From a virus, in IMG/VR virus record IMGVR_UViG_3300042566_001780, positions 62,001-126,000 of that record: a DNA stretch of 64,000 nt. One strand, given 5' to 3'. How positions within the stretch are numbered: position 1 is the first letter of the stretch; each line of letters begins with the position of its first letter. Made by a program: the position numbers and the translations under genes. Below are positions 20,445 through 47,634 of this stretch, one piece after another. The notes beneath the pieces were generated by a model. It did not search any database, had not been told where the DNA came from, and saw only the letters and a program-made list of their open reading frames with translations.

Positions 20445-22013
20445 TTAGAGACGAACTAATTTGTGGTTGCCACAATCGAGCAACTTGATGAACTTGTTCC
20501 TACGCATGTTCTCATCTTCAGTGACATTTGGATCGAATGATTCTCCAAGCAATTCTGGAAGCTTGCTCTTCATCGATTCATAACGTGTCACGATCCCAAA
20601 TCTCGGATGGAACCAAGAATAGCCAGGTTGAGTTTGCTTGACGTGGTTGAATCCAGATGCCAAATAACCAGCACCATTTGAAAACCGAGCATCAGCATAA
20701 GTCAAAATTGGACCATCTACTAAGCTCATCAATTTGCTAACACCACCACGAACACTAACATTTTCTTTGAAGCACATCCTGAGCAGTTCAAGCCCTTCAA
20801 ATTTCTCGAACCTAGGTTTCCCAAAGGTGGCTACTCCAACTAATTCATTTTTGAAGAACAATCCCAACTTCAAACTAGATCGGCATGAACCTTGCAAATG
20901 GTAAGTTTCCAAAAAATCTGAACTAGTTTGAAGATCAATTTCTCTCACTTCACACTGTCTTGCATTCAACTTTCGTTCAGCTTTTCCCAACTTGGACCTA
21001 ATTATAGATTTGATAATGGATTGCTTTTCACTCCATTCATAATCCCAAATGTGAATGACTTGCACTCCTGCTTTTTCTGCCATTAATGATTTCTCAAGCA
21101 AGCCAATTTTGCCAGATTCATCATGATGCCAATAGACACCATTCATCTCTATTGCGATGTTTTTCTCGGGGATGACAATATCAAGTTCTTTTGGTGCTAT
21201 GATTTTTCGGTCATTTCTTAAACATTCAAAACCCAAAGAGCTAACAAAAGAAAATAGCTCTTTTTCAGGTTTAGATTGCCCGCAACATCCAGGGCATCTT
21301 AGCTTTTCAAATAATCCTAAATTGAACTCATGCCCACACTCATGCTTAACTTTAACAAAATCACTTGTTAAGTTGATAATGTCAAATTCTTGTTGAACTC
21401 GATTTATGAATTTTTGCAGTTGAATCTCATGTAATTTTGGCAACAAGATTGATGAGGACCAGGAGCAGGAGCTTTCTGCCCCGTACCGGCTCATCATAGT
21501 AGAACGCATTTTTGCATTTAGCTCAGCAGATTCGGTAGTGAAACCCCCAAACTTTTCTTGCATTGTAGAAGCAATTTGCTTTCTTATTGCTGCAACTTTT
21601 AGCGGGTGATCAACACCATAACGAGATAAGCATGTTTCTTTAGTCTTTGCTCTATGCAGTTCTGTCTTTGCAAAATTGTCTGCACCATACCGTGAAACCA
21701 TAGTAGAAGCTGATTTCTGCCTAACTTCCTCAACTGCCAATGTACTTCTCACCCCATAACGCTCTACACACGTAGATTCAATGGAGTTGAGTCTCTTCTC
21801 TTTCACCCTCTTCGAAGATGAAGCACACTCAGCAGAACAAAAATCCCGATAGCCTTTCATGAAGGAAAGAAAAGCCGTCTTCCTTCCACATTCACAAACT
21901 TTTTCTGAAATGCCGTTCAACGCAACATAAATGAGTTCAGAAACCGTGTCAAACTTTCCATGAACCTTCTCTAGTTCATTAATCAATTCTTTGTTTCTAG
22001 AAGCGGATGCCAT
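20445..22013 (-). CDS. Freestanding Vsr-like (EDxHD-type) homing endonuclease
   Basis: 522 residues. Residues ~95-190 have three tandem repeats built on SRYGVDHPLK/KTKETC, DNA-binding modules of homing enzymes. The nuclease core follows: SKPEKEL, RKIIAPKELDIVIP, IAIEMNGVYWHHD and IHIWDYEW, matching the Vsr-like/EDxHD fold. Residues ~345-500 are the same domain found at the N-terminus of the GIY-YIG enzyme at 11436 (RGGVSKLMS, LTYADARFSNG, PGYSWF). It lies just upstream of the terminase gene, its likely homing neighbourhood. Confidence 0.87.
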   Translation of the reverse strand: MASASRNKELINELEKVHGKFDTVSELIYVALNGISEKVCECGRKTAFLSFMKGYRDFCSAECASSSKRVKEKRLNSIESTCVERYGVRSTLAVEEVRQKSASTMVSRYGADNFAKTELHRAKTKETCLSRYGVDHPLKVAAIRKQIASTMQEKFGGFTTESAELNAKMRSTMMSRYGAESSCSWSSSILLPKLHEIQLQKFINRVQQEFDIINLTSDFVKVKHECGHEFNLGLFEKLRCPGCCGQSKPEKELFSFVSSLGFECLRNDRKIIAPKELDIVIPEKNIAIEMNGVYWHHDESGKIGLLEKSLMAEKAGVQVIHIWDYEWSEKQSIIKSIIRSKLGKAERKLNARQCEVREIDLQTSSDFLETYHLQGSCRSSLKLGLFFKNELVGVATFGKPRFEKFEGLELLRMCFKENVSVRGGVSKLMSLVDGPILTYADARFSNGAGYLASGFNHVKQTQPGYSWFHPRFGIVTRYESMKSKLPELLGESFDPNVTEDENMRRNKFIKLLDCGNHKLVRL

Positions 22014-22146: not shown

Positions 22147-22512
22147 ATGGCTAAAAATCCAGGTTTAAAACGCGCTCATGAAACCGATGAGTATACCCAA
22201 GAAATGATTATGGAATTACAGAAGTGTTCTGTAGATCCAATTTATTTCATGGAGAAATATGTAAAAGTGCAACACCCCGTAAAGGGATCTGTGCCATTTG
22301 TTCTTTATGACTACCAAAAAGAAATGGTAATGGGGATACATGAGAATAGATCTACAATTTTGCTCCTGAGTCGCCAACTGGGAAAGTGTTTTTTTGGGTC
22401 CACAAAACTGCTAAATATTGTTAAGCCAACGGGCTTTAAAAAATATTTACTTAAGTTATTGGACAAGGAAACATATGACAACTTATTTCGCCCAAGCTCT
22501 ACAGAAGAATAA
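22147..22512 (+). CDS. 17: Terminase large subunit gp17, N-terminal piece with N-intein
   Basis: 121 residues. Residues 1-80 are the start of the packaging ATPase (CSVDPIYFMEKYVKV, LYDYQKEMV) up to Walker A SRQLGK. Residue 81 is Cys, and 81-121 (CFFGSTKLL...) are the N-terminal fragment of an intein ending at TAA. The matching C-fragment is in the ORF starting 23548, in the same frame, after an intervening endonuclease gene. Trans-splicing would join Lys80 to Thr157 of that ORF, completing the P-loop GKT. This is not decay: the extein halves abut exactly at the conserved motif. Confidence 0.9.
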   Translation: MAKNPGLKRAHETDEYTQEMIMELQKCSVDPIYFMEKYVKVQHPVKGSVPFVLYDYQKEMVMGIHENRSTILLLSRQLGKCFFGSTKLLNIVKPTGFKKYLLKLLDKETYDNLFRPSSTEE

Positions 22513-24015
22513 AACCAAAACTCTTTTCACCAATTTGAATAAATGCCCAGTCTGCGAATCTACATTTTCAGATAATGAAGGTCATGGCAAATTTTGCTCT
22601 AAAGCGTGCTCTTCTAAAATAGAAAAGATGTGCATAATTTGCAATAAGAAAATTATTAGCAAAAAGCCTGACAAATTTTGCTCTAAGGCATGTCGTGATG
22701 TACCTGGCAAAATTAAACTAAACGAAAAGAGAAAAGCTGAAGGCGGAGTGCAATGTCTTATTTGCGGGGATTATGGTAAATCATTAGCATTACATCTTAA
22801 GAAACTCCATAACATTAGTGCTGAAGATTATCGAAATCAGTATGGTGGTAAAACAGTATGTGAATCTACTTCCACTAAGCTTTCTGAATTAACATCTGGA
22901 GAAAACAATCCATGGTATAACCACGGTGGTACTATTTCTCCATTCTCCAAGAACAACAAAAAGTTCATTGGTCTTTCTGAAGAAGAAAAACAGCAGAAGG
23001 TTAATGAAGCAGTTGATGCTTATATCAAAACTACCCCAAAAGAAAATCGTCCGATGAATGTTGAGTATTGGATCAAACGCGGTATGACTGAGGAAGAAGC
23101 AAAAGCACAAGTTTCTAAAAGACAAACTACTTTCAGCTTAGAGAAATGTATTGAGCGCTATGGTGAAGAAGCAGGTAAAGCTCGTTGGCAAGAACGGCAA
23201 GAAAAATGGCACAAAAATTATAAAAAGAGCAATTACAGCCAAGTCTCCCAAAGATTATTCTTTAACCTAGTTGAAGAATATCCTGATGCTATGTTTGCTG
23301 AGCACGGTTCTGAATTTGTCTTTAGGACCAAAACGGGATCAGTTTTCAAATTAGATTTTTGGGTACCATCTTCTAAACATTTGATTGAATTTGATGGTGA
23401 CTATTGGCATGGAAAACGAGATGCAATCGCAAACCCTAATAGGTCAGCTAATAGAGATAAACAAATTTTAGAAACAGATAGTGAAATAAAAATCTTACAC
23501 GTCAAAGAGCGCGATTTCTACAAGGATCCAGAAGGAACAATCCAAAAATGCAAAGACTTCTTAAAAACTTAAAGCAGCGTCTTATTGATTGGTGCTTGCA
23601 GAAACAAGAAATTACCATCAAAGAACTTTTTCAATCATCAAATCCTTACCAAGTTTCCATTGATGATCTTACTGGAAATTTGAAATTTGTCCAAGAAGGC
23701 CATACTGAACGGTTAGTCCAAACTCCAACAGGCTGGGCACCTATCAAACGAGTTCTCCAAACTGTGCCATATCAAGCATGGCAATTGCGTGTTGATAGTT
23801 TAGAACCATTGATTGCAGCAGATGAGCATATCATTATGACTGAATCTGGCGAAAAATGGATGAAGGACTTATCACCCGGAGATTTAGTTCATACTATTAA
23901 TGGACTAAAGCCCGTTGAATCTATTCAAAATTTGGATAGATATGAAACTATGTATGACTTGGAATTAGATGACGATGGTCACGTCTTCTACACCAATGGT
24001 ATTTTGAGCCATAAT
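22387..24015 (+). other. Split intein 1 of terminase (N- and C-fragments around an endonuclease gene)
   Basis: N-fragment 22387-22509: 41 residues beginning with Cys. C-fragment 23548-24015: 156 residues ending YTNGILSHN before Thr. The C-fragment contains DEHIIMTESGEKWMKDL (block F-like preparatory region) and the terminal HN needed for Asn cyclisation. The insertion lies inside Walker A, a well-known intein hotspot. The layout matches the published 'fractured gene' arrangement in which a split intein flanks a Vsr-like endonuclease gene. Confidence 0.88.
22475..23572 (+). CDS. Vsr-like homing endonuclease nested in split terminase intein
   Basis: 365 residues in a different frame from the inteins, overlapping the N-fragment end by 38 bases and the C-fragment start by 25. 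ATG 22475 follows AAGGAA. N-terminal FCSKAC zinc knuckles occur twice, then a Ros/MucR-like CLICGDYGKSLALHLKKLH, then GENNPWYNHGG (NUMOD3-like). A GMTEEEAKAQVSKRQTTFS motif is shared with the uvsX endonuclease. The nuclease core KLDFWVPSSKHLIEFDGDYWHG is Vsr-like. It probably propagates the intein into intein-less terminase genes. Confidence 0.88.
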   Translation: MTTYFAQALQKNKTKTLFTNLNKCPVCESTFSDNEGHGKFCSKACSSKIEKMCIICNKKIISKKPDKFCSKACRDVPGKIKLNEKRKAEGGVQCLICGDYGKSLALHLKKLHNISAEDYRNQYGGKTVCESTSTKLSELTSGENNPWYNHGGTISPFSKNNKKFIGLSEEEKQQKVNEAVDAYIKTTPKENRPMNVEYWIKRGMTEEEAKAQVSKRQTTFSLEKCIERYGEEAGKARWQERQEKWHKNYKKSNYSQVSQRLFFNLVEEYPDAMFAEHGSEFVFRTKTGSVFKLDFWVPSSKHLIEFDGDYWHGKRDAIANPNRSANRDKQILETDSEIKILHVKERDFYKDPEGTIQKCKDFLKT

Positions 24016-24642
24016 ACGACAGTAGCAGCCATGTATATTCTATGGTTTGCTACATTTCATGCGGCAAAAAGATGTGTCATTGCATCTAAAGCAATGAACC
24101 ATGCTGTGGAAATTATGTCTCGTATTAAATTTGCTTACGAGGAATTGCCGAGCTGGATTAAAAGTGGCTGTACCTTCTATAATAGAACTAGTATCGAATT
24201 TTCAAATAAATCTGTCATCGTTTCTGAGGCAACATCAGAGAAAACAGGTCGAGGTTCTTCGCCATCTATTATTTTCCTTGATGAGATTGCGTTTATTTCG
24301 CGCAGAATTCAAGAAGAAATGTGGAGTTCTTTAACTCCAGCATTAAGTACGGGCGGCAAATTTATTGTAACCTCTACACCTAATGGAGATTCTGATCTAT
24401 TTGCTACATTATGGCGTGGAGCAAATGCTGGTACAAATGGTTTTACGCCAATGCAGTTCTTATGGTGGCGCCATCCTGATCGAGATCAGGCTTATTATGA
24501 CGATATGGTTGGGAAACTCGGGCCGGTAAAATCCGCCCAAGAGTTAAACTGTGCCTCATATGACACTCTATTAGACACTTCTATAGGTAATTTAACTATT
24601 GAAGAGTTGTATACGCGGTTGTGCGGCAATCAGGGAGAGTAA
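23548..24642 (+). CDS. 17: Terminase large subunit gp17, middle piece with C-intein 1 and N-intein 2
   Basis: 364 residues in three parts: 1-156 C-fragment of intein 1; 157-334 terminase ATPase core (TTVAAMYILWFATFHA, Walker B IIFLDEIAF with Asp245-Glu246, coupling motif VTSTPNG); 335-364 N-fragment of intein 2, beginning CASYDTLLDT and ending at TAA. The middle extein is only 178 residues and needs splicing at both ends. The first ~50 residues precede recognisable intein sequence and may be a linker or leftover. ATG 23548 lies inside the endonuclease end. Confidence 0.88.
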   Translation: MQRLLKNLKQRLIDWCLQKQEITIKELFQSSNPYQVSIDDLTGNLKFVQEGHTERLVQTPTGWAPIKRVLQTVPYQAWQLRVDSLEPLIAADEHIIMTESGEKWMKDLSPGDLVHTINGLKPVESIQNLDRYETMYDLELDDDGHVFYTNGILSHNTTVAAMYILWFATFHAAKRCVIASKAMNHAVEIMSRIKFAYEELPSWIKSGCTFYNRTSIEFSNKSVIVSEATSEKTGRGSSPSIIFLDEIAFISRRIQEEMWSSLTPALSTGGKFIVTSTPNGDSDLFATLWRGANAGTNGFTPMQFLWWRHPDRDQAYYDDMVGKLGPVKSAQELNCASYDTLLDTSIGNLTIEELYTRLCGNQGE

Positions 24643-24989
24643 GTATGGCATCAAATCAAACAATTGCACTCAATTATGAAGGCGTTAAAGTTCTTACCCC
24701 AACTGGTTATCAGTATTTTACTGGTATAAGCAGATCCTGGCATGAAGAAATTATTGAGATAAAGACGGCAAATAGAAGTATTAAAGCCGGAGTAAAGCAT
24801 AAATTCTTAACTTTAGATGGTTGGGTCCAATCTAGAGATTTAAAAGTTGGCGATGCTTTAGTCAATAATCAATGTGAAGATGAATGCATTACTGAAATAA
24901 ACATCTTAGCTGAACCTCAGTGGATGTATGACTTATTAGATGTTGAGTCCGGTAATACATATGTAGCTAATGGGCTTATTTGTCATAAT
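24550..24989 (+). other. Split intein 2 of terminase (AceL-TerL-like)
   Basis: N-fragment 24550-24639, 30 residues (CASYDTLLDT...). C-fragment 24645-24989, 115 residues, ending TYVANGLICHN before Cys. Only TAA plus 2 bases separates the two ORFs and no endonuclease lies between. A very short N-fragment in TerL is the hallmark of the atypically split AceL-TerL inteins known from Antarctic lake metagenomes; the C-fragment resembles theirs in plan (start, VLTPTGYQYFTGI, NG..xHN end). Confidence 0.88.
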
Positions 24990-25751
24990 TGCGAGTTTCT
25001 CTCAAGCGATGCGCTGCTAATTAGCTCGGTAAAGCTGCATCAAATCAAATATGAAAAGCCTATTTTTGAATCAATGGGATTTAAATTTTGGGTACCAGAA
25101 GAAGCGCTTGGTGGTAAAGGCAAAATATATCTAGTAGGTTTAGATCCAGCTACTGGGGGCGGGAATGATTTTTCTGTTATCGAAATATTTGATTTTCCTG
25201 GGTTAAATCAAATTGGAGAATTTCGCTCTAATGAAATCAACATTCCATTATTGTATGCTAAACTGTCGTGGATTTTAAAGAAGCTTACAGCCAATGTCAA
25301 TGGTGGCATTGCTGAAGTATCATGGACATTTGAGCGTAATGGCATTGGCGAAGCGATTGGTGCGTTATACTTTAATGATGAGAAACAAGTTGAAGAAGCA
25401 GATTTGTTTAATGATCATCATACAAAGTTTGGGGTGTATACAACTGGAAAAACGAAGATTTTGAATTGTTTGCAGTTGAAGACACTGGTTGAAAAGATCC
25501 ATAATGGTTTGAACATCAAGAGCGAACTGCTTATACATGAACTGAAGAACTTTGTGGCAAAGGGTGGTGGGTATGAGGCCAAGTCGGGTTCTACGGATGA
25601 CGCGGTGATGGCGACGATCTTGATCATGCGGTTGCTAAAGCGGCTTTCAGAGTATAATGAAGAAGCTTTTTCAACAGTCCATGAGTACGTTGACCCGAAT
25701 GCCGACATACCTGCAGAAGATTCTGATTCACCTCTGCCAATAATTCTATGA
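24645..25751 (+). CDS. 17: Terminase large subunit gp17, C-terminal piece with C-intein 2
   Basis: 368 residues. 1-115 is the C-fragment of intein 2; 116-368 is extein: CEFLSSDALL and the RNase H-like headful nuclease with LVGLDPATGGG (Asp167), AEVSWTFERNGIG and GSTDDAVMATIL near the end. AGGGAGAG at 24632-24639 supports ATG 24645. The full spliced protein would be 80+178+253, about 511 residues, against 610 in T4. The C-terminal Asp/Glu/Pro tail is typical of gp17. Confidence 0.9.
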   Translation: MASNQTIALNYEGVKVLTPTGYQYFTGISRSWHEEIIEIKTANRSIKAGVKHKFLTLDGWVQSRDLKVGDALVNNQCEDECITEINILAEPQWMYDLLDVESGNTYVANGLICHNCEFLSSDALLISSVKLHQIKYEKPIFESMGFKFWVPEEALGGKGKIYLVGLDPATGGGNDFSVIEIFDFPGLNQIGEFRSNEINIPLLYAKLSWILKKLTANVNGGIAEVSWTFERNGIGEAIGALYFNDEKQVEEADLFNDHHTKFGVYTTGKTKILNCLQLKTLVEKIHNGLNIKSELLIHELKNFVAKGGGYEAKSGSTDDAVMATILIMRLLKRLSEYNEEAFSTVHEYVDPNADIPAEDSDSPLPIIL

Positions 25752-39317: not shown

Positions 39318-39593
39318 ATGGGTTTACCATTTTTAGACAAGTTTAAAAAAGAAGTTGCTAAGCTTGAAACGGTTGGCGTCGGCATTAAAGAAACAGAAGT
39401 TTGGTTGAGTACTGGCAATTATGCATTGAATCGCGCATTGTCTGGTGATTTCAAAAAAGGCGTTCCGCTCAGTAAGATCACCCTGTTCGCGGGTCCCAGT
39501 GGGTGTTTGCCGGCTGATGAGAAGGTTGGAATTTATGTTTTTAAATCGCAGCCCTCAATAACAACGCCAATCTTTTTTGAAGAAAAAAAGTAA
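39318..39593 (+). CDS. uvsX: UvsX recombinase, N-terminal piece with N-intein
   Basis: 91 residues. 1-62 is the start of the RecA-like T4 UvsX (VWLSTGNYALNRALSG, ITLFAGPSG) up to the middle of Walker A. 63-91 is a 29-residue N-intein starting CLPADEKVGIYV, ending at TAA. Its C-fragment is in the ORF at 40876. Splicing would restore GPSG-SGKS. Confidence 0.9.
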   Translation: MGLPFLDKFKKEVAKLETVGVGIKETEVWLSTGNYALNRALSGDFKKGVPLSKITLFAGPSGCLPADEKVGIYVFKSQPSITTPIFFEEKK

Positions 39594-39601
39594 AAAGTGT
39601 G

Positions 39602-39634
39602 ACGCTCCTATAAATAGCTTATTTATAGGAGCGT
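39602..39634 (+). promoter_or_regulatory. Hairpin containing late promoter and endonuclease ribosome binding site
   Basis: 15-base perfect arms (39602-39616 and 39620-39634) around GCT. The 5' arm contains the T4 late octamer TATAAATA (39609-39616). The 3' arm contains TAGGAG (39626-39631), the SD of the endonuclease at 39638. Read-through RNA would fold and hide the SD; RNA started at the late promoter (about 39622) would lack the 5' arm and be translatable. Confidence 0.85.
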
Positions 39635-39637
39635 ATT

Positions 39638-40879
39638 ATGACAGCAAAACTTTACGATTTATTTCTTCATGCTAACACTGGCAAAAAACCAGTTAAACCG
39701 AGACCATTAGTATCTTTTGAAACATTTAAAGACATAATTCTCTCAAATATCAGTAATATATTTGAAGATGATGCGTTTTTAAAAAATAAATATGATCAAT
39801 ACTGTGCTTTATATAACAGTACAGTGTTAACAAAAATTAGTGGTGTAGCAGCTATTTTAGGATTTGAATCAAAAAATACATGCTTAAATTATTGGCTTTC
39901 ACGTGGATGGCCCGCAGATATTGCATTAGAAAAACATCGAAATAGGCAAGCTACAGTTAAATTGGCAAATATAGCCAAATCGCACAATGTTTCAATGTCT
40001 GAAGCTAAAAGAATAAAAACTGAGAGACTTAATCGTGGAATAGAAACATTAAAAAATAAAAGCAATTACGATGAAATTTGCTATTCGCGTGGAAATAGTA
40101 TGCGAGTTTCATATTATGAAACTAAAATAAATCCCAAAACTGGAAATTTATATACGTCTAAAGAGGCAGCTGATTTAATTGCGCAAAAATCAGCAAAAAG
40201 AGCAACTAAATTTTGGGATGATGTACGCGCTGGGAGAAAAATTTATGATGCTTCGACATCGCTAAATTATTATCTGAAAAAGGGTATGACAGAAGATGAA
40301 GCGCGGGCAGCTTTAACCAAGAGGCAAACAACTTTTTCTAAGCAAATATGCATAGAAAAACATGGACATGATAAGGGATTAGAAATATTTAATAAAAGAC
40401 AGGAAAAATGGTTGGCTACTTTAAATTCTTTTTCTGATGAAGAGAAACAAAGAATTTTAATAGCAAAAACCAGTAAATCAAAATCATATTCTCAAGAAGC
40501 TACTAAATTTTTAATTAAACTTTTGGATAAACTTGGCATTTCTAGAAACTCAGAATATGTTAAAATGTGTGATAACGAAATGTTTTTATGGTCGCGAGAT
40601 AAAAAGATAGGTTTTTATGATTTAGCAATTGTAAATTTAAAAATAATTGTTGAATACCATGGATCATCATTTCATCCAAATCCAAATTTATCTGAGGATC
40701 AATTAAAATGCTGGATAAACCCAATTACTAAGGTGAGTGCATATGATCAAAGAAAAAGAGATTTTCAAAAACTGATAACTGCAAAAGAGCATGGATATAC
40801 AGTGTTTGAAGTTTGGGACGCAGACGATCATGATTCAAAAATTATTGAAATTTGTAACTTTATAAAGGAAAAACTATGA
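39638..40879 (+). CDS. Vsr-like homing endonuclease of the uvsX split intein
   Basis: 413 residues. N-terminal ~250 residues hold DNA-recognition modules (GFESKNTCLNYWLSRGW; YYLKKGMTEDEARAALTKRQ) also found in the terminase-intein enzyme. The C-terminal nuclease is GFYDLAIVNLKIIVEYHGSS and YTVFEVWDADD, Vsr/EDxHD-like. AT-richer than the flanking uvsX exteins, a sign of separate origin. Late expression is expected from the promoter-hairpin in front. Its stop overlaps the next ORF (ATGA). Confidence 0.86.
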   Translation: MTAKLYDLFLHANTGKKPVKPRPLVSFETFKDIILSNISNIFEDDAFLKNKYDQYCALYNSTVLTKISGVAAILGFESKNTCLNYWLSRGWPADIALEKHRNRQATVKLANIAKSHNVSMSEAKRIKTERLNRGIETLKNKSNYDEICYSRGNSMRVSYYETKINPKTGNLYTSKEAADLIAQKSAKRATKFWDDVRAGRKIYDASTSLNYYLKKGMTEDEARAALTKRQTTFSKQICIEKHGHDKGLEIFNKRQEKWLATLNSFSDEEKQRILIAKTSKSKSYSQEATKFLIKLLDKLGISRNSEYVKMCDNEMFLWSRDKKIGFYDLAIVNLKIIVEYHGSSFHPNPNLSEDQLKCWINPITKVSAYDQRKRDFQKLITAKEHGYTVFEVWDADDHDSKIIEICNFIKEKL

Positions 40880-42312
40880 GTACTTTTACCGCTGAAGTGA
40901 TGTTAGCAGAGTTGTTAGCTAATTTTTCATCGCAAGATTTGATCAAGAAAATTGGTATTTCTAAACCAACACTTAAAAAGCTTTATGATGGTGAAGCTAG
41001 CAATGAAGTGTTGTTTAAACTAGAACAGGCTTTTTTGGCACATGTAAGAGCAAACATTAAACAGATTTCGATGTCAAATTTAAAGTCGATTTTGGAATCT
41101 GGTAATACTGTAATGGTGGATACGCCTGATGGGCCTCAGGCGATTATTAAATTTTTTAATAAAGATGCTAGGTCTATTGTTAAACTCAGCACAGCAAATG
41201 GAAAAACACTAACATGTTCAAATGACCATTTAGTTGAAACTGATTTTGGGTGGGCGTATGCAAATAAAGATGTAGTTGGCAAAAATGTACTAACTGGTGA
41301 AGGCTTTAATCCTGTAATTAAAGTTGAAGACCTAGCACCTGAACCCGTTTTCGACTTTGAAGTAGCACATCCAAACCATCGTTATTGGGGCGGTGATGGT
41401 ATTTCTTCTCACAATTCTGGAAAATCCTTCATAGCTTCCAATCTTGCATTGCAGGCTCAAAAAGATGGATACCATGTTCTGTATCTTGACTCCGAGCATG
41501 CTATTGATGTTGATTATCTGAAGAAGATTGGTGTTGACGTTAGTGAAGATAGTCTTACATATCTCTCAGTCACTACCATTGAAGATGTCAACTCGGTGCT
41601 TTCCGAATTCTTTAGTGGGTATGTTAAGGCGTATGGTAAGGATTCTACGACTGCACCCAAAACCCTGATTGTTCTTGATAGTCTTGCTATGTTGAGTTCT
41701 GCTACTGAGATGGAGAACTATGACAAAGGCGGCATCATTAAAGCGGACCAAGGTATTCTCGCAAAACGTCGTAAAGCAATGCTTCGACTAGCTACTGGTC
41801 ATTTGGGTCGGTTGCCAGTCAACATGGTGATTACCGACCACGTGTACCCCGCTGATATTATGGCAGGTGACGGTGCATGGGCAATTACAAACTCCACTAA
41901 ATTCTCATCTTCAATTATTGGTATTGTCACAAAGCTCAAGCTAAAAGAAGAAGGTGAAATTACTGGTGTTCGCATGCGTTTTGAAACGTATAAGAGCCGA
42001 TTTGCAAAGCTTGGCACTAAGGTTGAGCTTGAAGTTCCTTATAACAAGGGAATGAGCCCTTTTAGTGGATTGCTTCCGCTTCTTGAAAGCATGGGAGTTA
42101 TTGCTAAAGGTACTAAGCCTGGTGAAAAGCTTCTTTGGGTATGCGAATGGACAGATGAAGATGGCGAAATTCATGAAGTCAAGTTCAAGGAAAAAGATTT
42201 GACTGATGACATTGTTCAGGAACTTCTTAAGCATCCTCTTTGCGCTGCAACAATGGCTCGCCCAGCTACTAAAGAAGATGAACCTTCTCTTGAAGATGAC
42301 GATGTAGAGTAA
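40876..42312 (+). CDS. uvsX: UvsX recombinase, C-terminal piece with C-intein
   Basis: 478 residues. 1-~75 resembles a helix-turn-helix unit (LIKKIGISKPTLKKLYDG), unusual on an intein fragment. ~80-180 is the C-intein. 181-478 is UvsX: SGKSFIASNLA, Walker B-like LIVLDSLAML, DNA-binding loop region with DHVYPADIM, acidic C-terminus DDDVE. Spliced UvsX would be about 360 residues (T4: 391). It catalyses strand exchange for recombination-dependent replication with gp32 and UvsY. Confidence 0.9.
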   Translation: MSTFTAEVMLAELLANFSSQDLIKKIGISKPTLKKLYDGEASNEVLFKLEQAFLAHVRANIKQISMSNLKSILESGNTVMVDTPDGPQAIIKFFNKDARSIVKLSTANGKTLTCSNDHLVETDFGWAYANKDVVGKNVLTGEGFNPVIKVEDLAPEPVFDFEVAHPNHRYWGGDGISSHNSGKSFIASNLALQAQKDGYHVLYLDSEHAIDVDYLKKIGVDVSEDSLTYLSVTTIEDVNSVLSEFFSGYVKAYGKDSTTAPKTLIVLDSLAMLSSATEMENYDKGGIIKADQGILAKRRKAMLRLATGHLGRLPVNMVITDHVYPADIMAGDGAWAITNSTKFSSSIIGIVTKLKLKEEGEITGVRMRFETYKSRFAKLGTKVELEVPYNKGMSPFSGLLPLLESMGVIAKGTKPGEKLLWVCEWTDEDGEIHEVKFKEKDLTDDIVQELLKHPLCAATMARPATKEDEPSLEDDDVE

Positions 42313-44919: not shown

Positions 44920-47634
44920 ATGATCAAAACAATTATCAAGCGCAATGGATCTCGTGAACAATTTAATGCAGCAAAGCTAAATGGCTGGGGAGAATGGGCA
45001 GCACGCAAACTAGGCCATCTAGTTGATTGGCCTGCAGTAGTATTGCATGCAGTTAGCACTCTACCAGAAGATTGTACTAGTGAACAGCTGCAAAATGCGC
45101 TTATTGATTTTTGTTTGGCTAAGAAAACTTGGGAATACAACCTGATGGCTGGTCGGTTGTATGCTGCACTAATGTCTAAGCAAATTCATGGTCGTAAGAA
45201 GCCATCTATTAAAGATCTGCAAACTGCATTGTTCAATGATGGCTTGATGGCTCAGCTTAATTATTCTGATGAAGAATATGAGCAGATTGAGAAAATGATC
45301 AATCATAATCTTGATCTGAAAAGCTCACATTATGAATTGCAACAGATTCGTTACAAATATGCCCTTCGCAATAAAGTGACTGGTAAAGAATACGAAACTC
45401 CACAGTTCACGTATATGCGCATGGCTATGGCTCTTGCAGAAAATGAGCCAAAAGAAAATCGCATGACTGATGTTGCTAAATGGTACGAGCATCTTTCACA
45501 TAAGCGCATCAATGCTCCGACACCTTACTACACTAACCTTGGCACTACTCATAACGGTTATGCATCGTGCTGCGTGTATACAACGGGTGATACGGCTCCT
45601 TCTCTTGCCGCTGGCGATCATATTGCTTATATGATGACGGTGATGAGCGCCGGTATTGGTTCGCATATCAAAACCCGGTCACTTGGAGATCCAGTGCGTG
45701 GCGGCCTCATTAAGCACCAAGGTAAAATTCCATACTATCGCGCATTGGTCGGTGCTATTGGTGCAAACTTGCAAAATGGCCGGGGCGGCGCAGCTACTGT
45801 CCACTACACCGCGTATGATCCAGAAGTTGAAGTTATTGCAAAGCTCAAGAATGCAATGACACCAGCTGCTAAGCAAGTTCGTGGCTGCGACTACAGTTTT
45901 GGATCTAACAAGTTCTTCGCAAAAATGGCTGCGCAGGATAAAGAAATTGCCACCTTCTCTTATCACGATGCTCCTGAACTCTATGAAGCACAGTATGACG
46001 GCGATTCCACCAAATTCGAAAGACTTTATGAAGAATTTTTAGCTTCAGAAAAAAAGCGCACAGTTTTTTCTGCGCGCAAAATTCTTATAAGCGCTCTTGA
46101 AGAGGCGTATGAAACTGGCCGCCATTACCTGCACTTCACTGATACTATCAATAAGCATACACCTTTCAAGGAAAAGATTTATTCCTCGAACCTGTGTCTT
46201 GCGGGTAATACTTTAGTTAAAGCTAAGATTGATGGCTTTGAACGTGAAGTTACTCTTGAAGTTCTAGATGATGCATTCTGGGCTGGTGCTTCTATTGAAG
46301 TTATGTCGATGAATGATAGCACAAAGATTCGCGAGTACAAAAAAGTGGTGGCATCTAAACTGATGCGTCGCTCTGCAGAAGTTTTGTCTATCAAAGATGA
46401 ACTGTTTAGCAATGAGATTGTTTGCACTGGCGATCACAAAGTGTATACAGTTAATCGCGGCTATGTGGAAGCTAAAGATCTTCTGCCAAGTGATGCCCTT
46501 AATGTCAATGGCGAAATTAGCTTTGGCGTGATTAAAACCGAATTGCAAGATCGCATTGATGTCTATGACATTACTGTTGAAGACAACCACAATTTTTATG
46601 CAAACAATATTCTGGTGCATAACTGCCAAGAAATTGCTTTGGTGACCAAACCATTCAAGTCAGTGCAGCAGCTGTATGAAGATTACACCGAGGACTCTGG
46701 CGAAATCGCTCTTTGCAATATTGCCGCTATCGTAGTCTCAAACATTGAGAATGATGCTCAATATGATGAAGTTGCTTATTACACATTGAAGATGATTGAT
46801 GTAGGTATTCATAAGAGCACCTACGTCTTTAAGGCTCTTGAGCAAACTGCAAAAGCCCGCCTTAATGCTGGTGTTGGAATGATGGGTGTTGCTCATCTAA
46901 TGGCAAAAAATGGTAAGAAGTATTCTTCTCAAGAAGGTAAAAACTTTATGCATGAACTAGCAGAAACTCATGCATGGCATGTCATCAATGCTTCTCTGAA
47001 GCTTGCAAAAGAAAAAGGCAATGCTCCATGGATGCATAAGACCAAGTGGCCTGAAGGGTGGTTGCCAATTGACACGTATGAAAAGAAAGTCGATAGTTTA
47101 GTGACTGTTGAAAATAAGCGTGATTGGGAATCTCTTAGAAAAGAAATCATTGCCAATGGTGGCATTCGTAATTCTGTCTGTATAGCCTTCATGCCGGGTG
47201 AGTCGTCAAGTTTGTCGAGCGGAACCACTAATGGCCTATATCCAATCCGAGATTTTGACCTTGTTAAGACTAGCGATACTATGGCAGTCAATTACGTAGT
47301 ACCTGATGCCACGAAGCTCCGCGATAAATATGAAATAGCCTGGGATGTTCCTACCACTGATCTAATTCATCATTATGCAATTGTCCAAAAATGGACAGAT
47401 CAAGCAATTAGCGCTGATCTTTATCGCAAGATTCAAGGTGATGATACGGTTGGCACTACTGAAATGATGGAAATTTATTTCAATCTGGTACGCTATGGAA
47501 TTAAGACCCGCTATTACCAAAATAGCTTGACTGCAAAGGGTATTGATCTTAATTCATCTGAAACAAATGATGATGCCCAAGTTATAATTAACGACTCTGA
47601 TGATGAAGCTAATTGTGAAGGCTGTTCTCTATGA
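44920..47634 (+). CDS. nrdA: Ribonucleotide reductase class Ia alpha subunit NrdA, with contiguous mini-intein
   Basis: 904 residues, of which 426-568 are an intein; the spliced enzyme would be 761 (T4: 754). ATP-cone at 1-90 (IKRNGSREQFNAAKLNGW), substrate/active-site Cys in NGYASCCVY, the SSNLCQEI junction, and radical-transfer Tyr region near NSLTAKGIDLNSS. It reduces ribonucleotides for phage DNA with NrdB downstream (ATGA overlap). The C-terminal CEGCSL carries the redox Cys pair served by the glutaredoxin at 48751. Confidence 0.95.
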   Translation: MIKTIIKRNGSREQFNAAKLNGWGEWAARKLGHLVDWPAVVLHAVSTLPEDCTSEQLQNALIDFCLAKKTWEYNLMAGRLYAALMSKQIHGRKKPSIKDLQTALFNDGLMAQLNYSDEEYEQIEKMINHNLDLKSSHYELQQIRYKYALRNKVTGKEYETPQFTYMRMAMALAENEPKENRMTDVAKWYEHLSHKRINAPTPYYTNLGTTHNGYASCCVYTTGDTAPSLAAGDHIAYMMTVMSAGIGSHIKTRSLGDPVRGGLIKHQGKIPYYRALVGAIGANLQNGRGGAATVHYTAYDPEVEVIAKLKNAMTPAAKQVRGCDYSFGSNKFFAKMAAQDKEIATFSYHDAPELYEAQYDGDSTKFERLYEEFLASEKKRTVFSARKILISALEEAYETGRHYLHFTDTINKHTPFKEKIYSSNLCLAGNTLVKAKIDGFEREVTLEVLDDAFWAGASIEVMSMNDSTKIREYKKVVASKLMRRSAEVLSIKDELFSNEIVCTGDHKVYTVNRGYVEAKDLLPSDALNVNGEISFGVIKTELQDRIDVYDITVEDNHNFYANNILVHNCQEIALVTKPFKSVQQLYEDYTEDSGEIALCNIAAIVVSNIENDAQYDEVAYYTLKMIDVGIHKSTYVFKALEQTAKARLNAGVGMMGVAHLMAKNGKKYSSQEGKNFMHELAETHAWHVINASLKLAKEKGNAPWMHKTKWPEGWLPIDTYEKKVDSLVTVENKRDWESLRKEIIANGGIRNSVCIAFMPGESSSLSSGTTNGLYPIRDFDLVKTSDTMAVNYVVPDATKLRDKYEIAWDVPTTDLIHHYAIVQKWTDQAISADLYRKIQGDDTVGTTEMMEIYFNLVRYGIKTRYYQNSLTAKGIDLNSSETNDDAQVIINDSDDEANCEGCSL
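46195..46623 (+). other. Mini-intein in nrdA
   Basis: 143 residues in frame, starting CLAGNTLVKAK and ending YANNILVHN before Cys569. Contains TGDHKVYTVNRGYVEAKDL (block B/F type). Too short for an endonuclease domain. Insertion is at SSNL^CQEI in a strictly conserved NrdA motif. Splicing in cis needs no other gene. Confidence 0.92.

Follow-up and report, generated by a model that had tools for sequence, protein, structure and literature searches.

We identified, in a 64,000-nucleotide stretch of phage DNA (the window; bases 62001-126000 of the linear 291,687-bp IMG/VR phage record IMGVR_UViG_3300042566_001780), a gene for the large terminase (TerL, gp17) that is divided over three open reading frames (ORFs) carrying halves of two different inteins at their inner ends. 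These encode extein E1 with the N-half of intein 1 (E1-IN1, 80+41 amino acids (aa)), the C-half of intein 1 with extein E2 and the N-half of intein 2 (IC1-E2-IN2, 156+178+30 aa) and the C-half of intein 2 with extein E3 (IC2-E3, 115+253 aa). Two trans-splicing reactions would yield the phage's large terminase from these pieces, a reading to which we assign a probability of about 90%.

Anatomy of the terminase locus and its two inteins

The first ORF (22147-22512) has the C-terminal junction SRQLGK/CFFGST (slashes mark splice junctions), the second (23548-24642) the junctions GILSHN/TTVAAM and AQELN/CASYDT and the third (24645-25751) the junction LICHN/CEFLSS (Table 1). Both inteins are naturally split, with a separate ORF for each half, stops at 22512 and 24642 and own starts at 23548 and 24645, the latter an ATG just 2 bases beyond the preceding stop. 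A homing endonuclease gene (HEG, 22475-23572) overlaps the TerL ORFs on either side of it, and Shine-Dalgarno-like sequences lie 5′ of the HEG, IC1 and IC2 starts. The ORFs, boundaries, half lengths (41+156 and 30+115) and 2-base gap given in an initial annotation of the window were all reproduced in the sequence.

Table 1 Features of the TerL locus in window coordinates
Feature	Position	Strand	Support
TerL extein E1 (80 aa), ends SRQLGK, first half of Walker A P-loop	22147..22386	+	71-74% identity to N-terminus of contiguous TerLs L015, L016, L030; PHROG TerL E=3.1e-23
IN1, intein 1 N-half, 41 aa, first residue Cys	22387..22509	+	58.8% identity (best segment) to L007 IN half, same site; 44% to contiguous L085/L107 intein
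Free-standing HEG within intein 1, 365 aa, ATG start	22475..23572	+	Related HEG, same place, in L007 (36%) and L077 (28%)
IC1, intein 1 C-half, 156 aa, ends ILSHN	23548..24015	+	TIGR01443 above cut-off; Pfam Intein_splicing E=1.1e-4 (under cut-off); gp41-1, VidaL matches
TerL extein E2 (178 aa): TT of Walker A, Walker B FLDEIAF	24016..24549	+	T4 gp17 E=5.7e-21; identity to relatives up to 84%
IN2, intein 2 N-half, 30 aa, first residue Cys	24550..24639	+	53-54% identity to same-site IN halves of L002, L112, L109
AGGGAGAG, Shine-Dalgarno-like, inside IN2 end, 5 bases 5′ of IC2 ATG	24632..24639	+	Sequence
IC2, intein 2 C-half, 115 aa, ends LICHN	24645..24989	+	Pfam Intein_splicing 38.5 bits (over cut-off); CatC intein 6dsl E=1.5e-9; 47% to L109
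TerL extein E3 (253 aa), RNase H-like nuclease domain, conserved acidic residues	24990..25748	+	T4 gp17 E=6.5e-9; 60-70% identity to most relatives

The exteins sum to 511 aa (80+178+253) and form a T4 gp17-type large terminase in which GK/TT, FLDEIAF, LDPATG, ERNG and TDDAV align with T4 gp17; the middle ORF product matches both T4 gp17 and the gp41-1 intein (E=1.2e-5), and the last matches both the Cat intein and T4 gp17. Site a, the position of intein 1, falls within the P-loop (GK/TT), and alignment to gp17 places site b, the position of intein 2, at the ATPase-nuclease boundary. TerL is a single ORF in about 30 related IMG/VR contigs, several of at least 300 kb, with which the intein-free 511-aa protein aligns end to end. 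In the closest relatives (e.g. L003, L015 and L016) E1, E2 and E3 stand back to back in one frame with no residue gained or lost, the contiguous L016 TerL showing 72/79/65% identity to the three, and both insertion sites are thus seen empty. The match of the predicted junctions to these empty sites far exceeds chance and agrees with the earlier description of the three ORFs as consecutive parts of a gp17 of about 511 residues. An intact terminase elsewhere in the genome, one of two findings that the initial annotation had named as fatal to its proposal, was looked for in the 291.7-kb record and not found, a 508-aa contiguous TerL from a relative recovering just the three pieces. The phage's record also lacks the ATPase-only TerL paralogue that is common upstream of TerL in relatives, and Rfam identified no RNA introns in the TerL region or the window. 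In the relatives one or two of these paralogues (about 230-370 aa, without the nuclease domain, their Walker motifs partly degenerate) lie directly upstream of TerL, as in L003 (4914-5660), L006, L018, L019, L022, L029, L032, L035 and L039.

Both inteins possess the class 1 residues Cys1, block-B His, penultimate His, terminal Asn and a +1 nucleophile, within the motifs C...ADEH...SHN/T (intein 1) and C...GVKH...CHN/C (intein 2). Class 1 (Hint) homology is evident in IC2, which is over the Pfam cut-off and matches CatC, and in IC1, which is under that cut-off and matches gp41-1; in the initial annotation an intein-profile search of the fragments had been proposed. A PDB search using IN2 alone returned no match. 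Differences from the nearest allele at codon positions 1/2/3 were 0.39/0.28/0.67 for IC1, 0.37/0.30/0.74 for IN2 and 0.44/0.32/0.66 for IC2 (0.46/0.40/0.63 for the HEG), the third-position excess showing purifying selection on the intein halves, less clearly so for IN1. Charge complementarity was considered as a sign of pairing and rejected, the values (IN1 +2/IC1 -8; IN2 -4/IC2 -6) giving no clean rule.

That the two inteins are different, as initially proposed, is reflected in the 28% identity of IC1 and IC2, each of which is nearest to same-site inteins of other phages. In a tree of 56 C-halves the site labels (a, b, other and c, a third TerL site adjoining Walker B) require 9 changes against 27 in shuffles; 20 of 20 site-a halves fall, together with one other half, in a single 100/99 branch while sites b and c are intermixed. 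In a smaller C-half tree the member of this branch from outside site a was UvsX. The sister of intein 1 is the contiguous L085/L107 allele and that of intein 2 the split L109 allele, which has no HEG. Since C-halves cluster by insertion site, the two inteins were most likely acquired separately as alleles of their own TerL sites rather than duplicated within the gene.

Fractured genes, reportedly described by Dassa et al. in 2009, are said to have a split intein whose halves lie on either side of a free-standing gene for a Vsr-like endonuclease. Intein 1 fits this layout, a free-standing HEG that is Vsr-like by a weak profile match standing between its halves: the HEG family profile matches Vsr structures at E=0.006 (weak) and 3r3p at E=0.028, and a match to MTES_1575 (E=5e-4) was below cut-off. 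The AlphaFold model of the HEG (predicted local distance difference test (pLDDT) score 60) yielded no structural match under 1e-3, and the profile search was more informative. Intein 1 (41+156 aa) occupies a site other than that of AceL-TerL and GOS-TerL, groups with the site-a inteins and has gp41-1 and VidaL as its closest solved relatives. Intein 2, with just 2 bases between its halves, lacks the fractured-gene layout and is of the AceL/GOS-TerL type (30+115 aa, HN/CEF in TerL, best PDB match CatC). Of the two known types to which the initial annotation had appealed, the fractured layout was recovered for intein 1 and the atypical AceL/Cat-type split for intein 2, the latter without a HEG. 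Directly upstream of TerL a 522-aa stand-alone homing endonuclease (window 20445-22013, minus strand; phrog_3339, E=2e-113; DUF7487) combines Vsr-like and Mom-like parts.

Proposed assembly and its alternatives

In the pathway we propose, one overlapping ORF cluster would give rise to the E1-IN1, IC1-E2-IN2 and IC2-E3 polypeptides, IN1 pairing with IC1 and IN2 with IC2. Each rebuilt class 1 intein would then excise itself through an acyl shift at Cys1, transfer to Thr+1 or Cys+1 and Asn cyclisation, the ligated exteins forming a single 511-aa gp17-type ATPase-nuclease. Roughly matched synthesis of the three pieces is plausible, given that the ORFs overlap or nearly abut and are preceded by Shine-Dalgarno-like sequences. 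Without the first reaction the P-loop would remain severed between GK and TT, and without the second the ATPase would stay apart from the nuclease domain; as site a cuts the P-loop and site b lies at the domain boundary, full TerL function most likely requires both ligations. The middle piece bears IC at its N-terminus and IN at its C-terminus, such that mispairing of IN2 with IC1 would give a circular E2 and mispairing of IN1 with IC2 a 333-aa E1-E3 fusion without E2, an anatomy that would demand orthogonality. The two inteins probably reached two established TerL sites independently, intein 1 retaining the endonuclease gene presumably responsible for its homing and for the break in TerL, and intein 2 probably having lost its own, since split inteins at the same point elsewhere enclose HNH, GIY-YIG or Vsr-like genes. 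We infer that splicing occurs, that the pairs do not cross-react and the order of these events.

A number of points weigh against this pathway. Splicing is predicted here from the sequence, orthogonality is argued from sequence distance alone, and the basis is one assembled, possibly incomplete record. The usual block-B Thr is missing in both inteins, intein profiles gave no match to IN1, and the inner part of IN1 is poorly conserved relative to the contiguous L085 intein (37% identity; codon positions 0.54/0.51/0.61). AlphaFold modelling of IC1-E2-IN2, aimed at whether IN2 docks on IC1 as self-cyclisation would require, gave a structure in which Foldseek still recognised both the Hint and the ATPase fold, but with a confidence (pLDDT 61; IN2 tail mostly <50) insufficient to show the docking partner of IN2.

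The gap of just 2 bases between the stop and ATG of intein 2 invites the alternative that this intein is contiguous, an indel near 24621-24645 (from sequencing, assembly or rare mutation) faking the stop, and that TerL is made in two pieces, one intein being split and the other acting in cis. Upstream of its ATG the IC2 frame stays open as far as a GTG at 24621, so that changing one base would join the halves, and TerLs with both cis and split inteins are known in VP-1 and L108. We nevertheless regard an indel as very unlikely, since L109 has a HEG-less split at this very point (its halves sharing 54% and 47% identity with those of the window), the same break is seen in L002, L012, L112, L113 and many more, in several of them around a HEG, a ribosome site (AGGGAGAG) stands 5 bases before the ATG, and the AceL/GOS-TerL inteins split after 25-37 residues (PMC11766414). 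Equally hard to credit is a non-covalent assembly of the three polypeptides with the inteins as relics, as has been reported for certain phage NrdA genes interrupted by MobE-type insertions. HEG-broken phage enzymes can work unspliced, to judge from the title of a reference cited in PMC3322345, and the site-b break does fall between the ATPase and nuclease domains; however, the site-a break severs the P-loop, unspliced ends would bear 30-156 aa of intein, each of the four intein ends has preserved its splicing residues and the halves show purifying selection. A decaying or defective TerL, in a phage that is a dead end or relies on an unsampled intact copy, is exceedingly improbable. Although the linear record may be incomplete and relatives carry ATPase-only paralogues upstream of TerL, all four ORFs are open with complete motifs and a third-position excess, the 291.7-kb record holds neither a second TerL nor a paralogue, and the same layout recurs in L204.

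Trans-splicing through the 178-residue middle segment, as put forward in the initial annotation, thus remains our preferred account, its sequence-level predictions having held: the inteins differ, relatives show exact empty sites, the splicing residues are conserved, and neither a spare TerL nor an RNA intron was seen. More speculatively, and with low probability, multi-way TerL fracture may be more than a parasite burden and be kept because it gates motor assembly: the recurrent breaks fall at the P-loop, Walker B and the ATPase-nuclease junction, and activity would come only when every piece has been made and has found its proper partner. The phage would then operate about five mutually orthogonal split inteins within a single cell.

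Multi-piece terminases and other broken genes

IMG/VR was searched with DNA patterns spanning the junctions at TerL sites a, c and b; loci in which every TerL segment was present once and in order were counted, and for the multi-split set the IN and IC sequence was read at every junction. In 58 of these loci TerL is a single ORF, whether or not it contains contiguous inteins, in 45 it is split at b, in 18 at c and in 7 at a; these counts are not frequencies as the scans select for inteins and the contigs include near-copies (L235/L252, L236/L254, L146/L159; L043 repeats L007 and L104 repeats Atu_ph07). Contrary to the initial view that two split inteins in one terminase are unusual, 13 loci beyond the window have TerL in three or four split-intein pieces: six are split at c and b (L126, L141, L146, L159, L174, L182), three at a and c (L101, L236, L254), one at a and b (L204) and three at a, c and b together, which gives four pieces (L129, L235, L252). 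Within multi-split genes C-halves at different sites average 30% identity, compared with 37-44% for the same site across genes. The double fracture probably arose more than once, because the site-a inteins of the window and L204 have different nearest kin, that of L204 being nearest to L236, L235, L086 and L129 while the sister of the window's is the contiguous allele of its own TerL lineage.

Single steps are also represented. L007 is split at site a alone with a related HEG, L085 and L107 hold the site-a intein unbroken within a single ORF (IC identity of up to 66% in the tree alignment), L109 is split at site b alone without a HEG, L012, L112 and L113 are split at site b with a HEG-like gene between the halves, and L002 breaks off directly behind IN2. 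Among isolated phages single steps occur in PX29 (annotated 17A/17B, intein halves), Atu_ph07, PSTRCR_127, EniLVp02, Va1 and 1.244.A, and the VP-1 TerL has one cis and one split intein. In L102 (78-kb contig, G001:C1:53057-56007) the pieces IC-E2b-IN and IC-E2a-IN stand in reversed order 1.9 kb apart with an unrelated 629-aa ORF between them, so that joining is possible in trans only; this TerL implies at least four pieces, of which E1 and E3 were not found in the contig.

Some inteins in these loci depart from the usual residues: sites c and b of L126, L129, L141, L174, L182 and L185 include site-c inteins ending SHQ/CDEF (last residue Gln) and site-b inteins ending SSN or VKN without the penultimate His, and the site-a N-halves of L101 and Atu_ph07 (L064 listed with site a) start with Thr or Ser, not Cys. 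The Vibrio phages VP-1 (L058) and BX-1 (L059), of the same species, form a cultured occupied/empty pair, the site-b split intein being present in one and absent from the other.

Other genes of the same phage are also broken. A UvsX/RecA-like gene (window 39318-42312) is fractured in Walker A, its N piece (39318-39593, GPSG/C) separated from IC and the C-extein (40876-42312, HN/SGKS) by a HEG (39638-40879) 23% identical to that of TerL. A gp46/SbcC-like gene (G000:C1:6489-8761, minus strand; L258) contains a P-loop split intein (GSGK/C; HN/TTI) without a HEG, its ORFs overlapping by 4 bases and its IC 40% identical to IC1, the highest value among the pairs compared in the genome. The topoisomerase II large subunit (G000:C1:270629-274018; L259) has a split intein at EGD/SA with a HEG inside (272464-273573), the site being empty (EGDSAR) in relatives. 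NrdA (window 44920-47634) carries a contiguous intein ending VHN/CQEI, so that this phage harbours inteins of both the cis and the split kind. Outside the window the topoisomerase II large-subunit gene also shows an apparent T4 gene-60-type translational bypass (G000:C1:275094-275677; L259:5095-5678) with a HEG just upstream: SDQDLDG(GGA) is followed by TAG, a perfect 7-bp UUCG hairpin runs from the take-off GGA, and the landing GGA lies 44 nt on, followed by FHVSSLLLSFW. Four relatives (L260-L263) read DQDLDGFH[VI] uninterrupted, making the 47-nt insert exact.

Significance and comparison with known systems

Three-segment trans-splicing with orthogonal split-intein pairs is an engineers' design that apparently occurs naturally in an essential motor, with three-site versions also in existence. 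The IC1-E2-IN2 middle piece has the topology used in laboratories for cyclic proteins, and wrong pairing would thus close E2 into a circle or fuse E1 directly to E3, leaving no working motor; for this reason multi-piece TerL genes are probably ready-made sets of intein pairs with orthogonality imposed by selection. TerL is moreover a standard phage marker gene, and automatic annotation will miss or truncate its multi-piece forms.

That terL can harbour HEGs and inteins is well established (PMC10448857, PMC8228797), and an intein together with an intron has been reported in the terL of one Campylobacter phage (PMC3322345). Full-text literature searches, which did not cover the founding 2009 fractured-gene paper, found no description of a gene, TerL or other phage gene, broken by at least two natural split inteins. 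Intein 1 resembles the inteins of fractured genes in being split with a Vsr-like HEG overlapping both halves, a layout shared by the window's UvsX, whereas intein 2 has no HEG and there are two fractures per gene here and three in relatives. Among the characterised split inteins GOS-TerL and AceL-TerL are of the atypical kind, and their N-halves are interchangeable (PMC11766414); like these and Cat, intein 2 is a TerL split intein with a short IN (25-37 aa in this group), a long IC (about 100 aa in this group), Cys1 and a following Cys-Glu, although theirs is described as the one split intein of TerL while the window gene has two, dissimilar and sharing a middle piece. The VP-1 and L108 TerLs have inteins at the same two sites as the window, but their Walker A intein is contiguous and the second alone is split, giving two pieces. 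L204 (IMGVR_UViG_3300006805_000498) has the same E1/E2/E3 three-piece TerL with split inteins at the same two sites and differs in its distant TerL lineage and intein sequences, in an unannotated metagenome contig. Assembly of three segments by two orthogonal split inteins, an IC-middle-IN segment being joined on both sides, is a current engineering goal (PMC12707363); that system is man-made, whereas the window case is natural and lies in an essential phage gene. The parts are known, and their multi-piece combination appears to be both new and recurrent.

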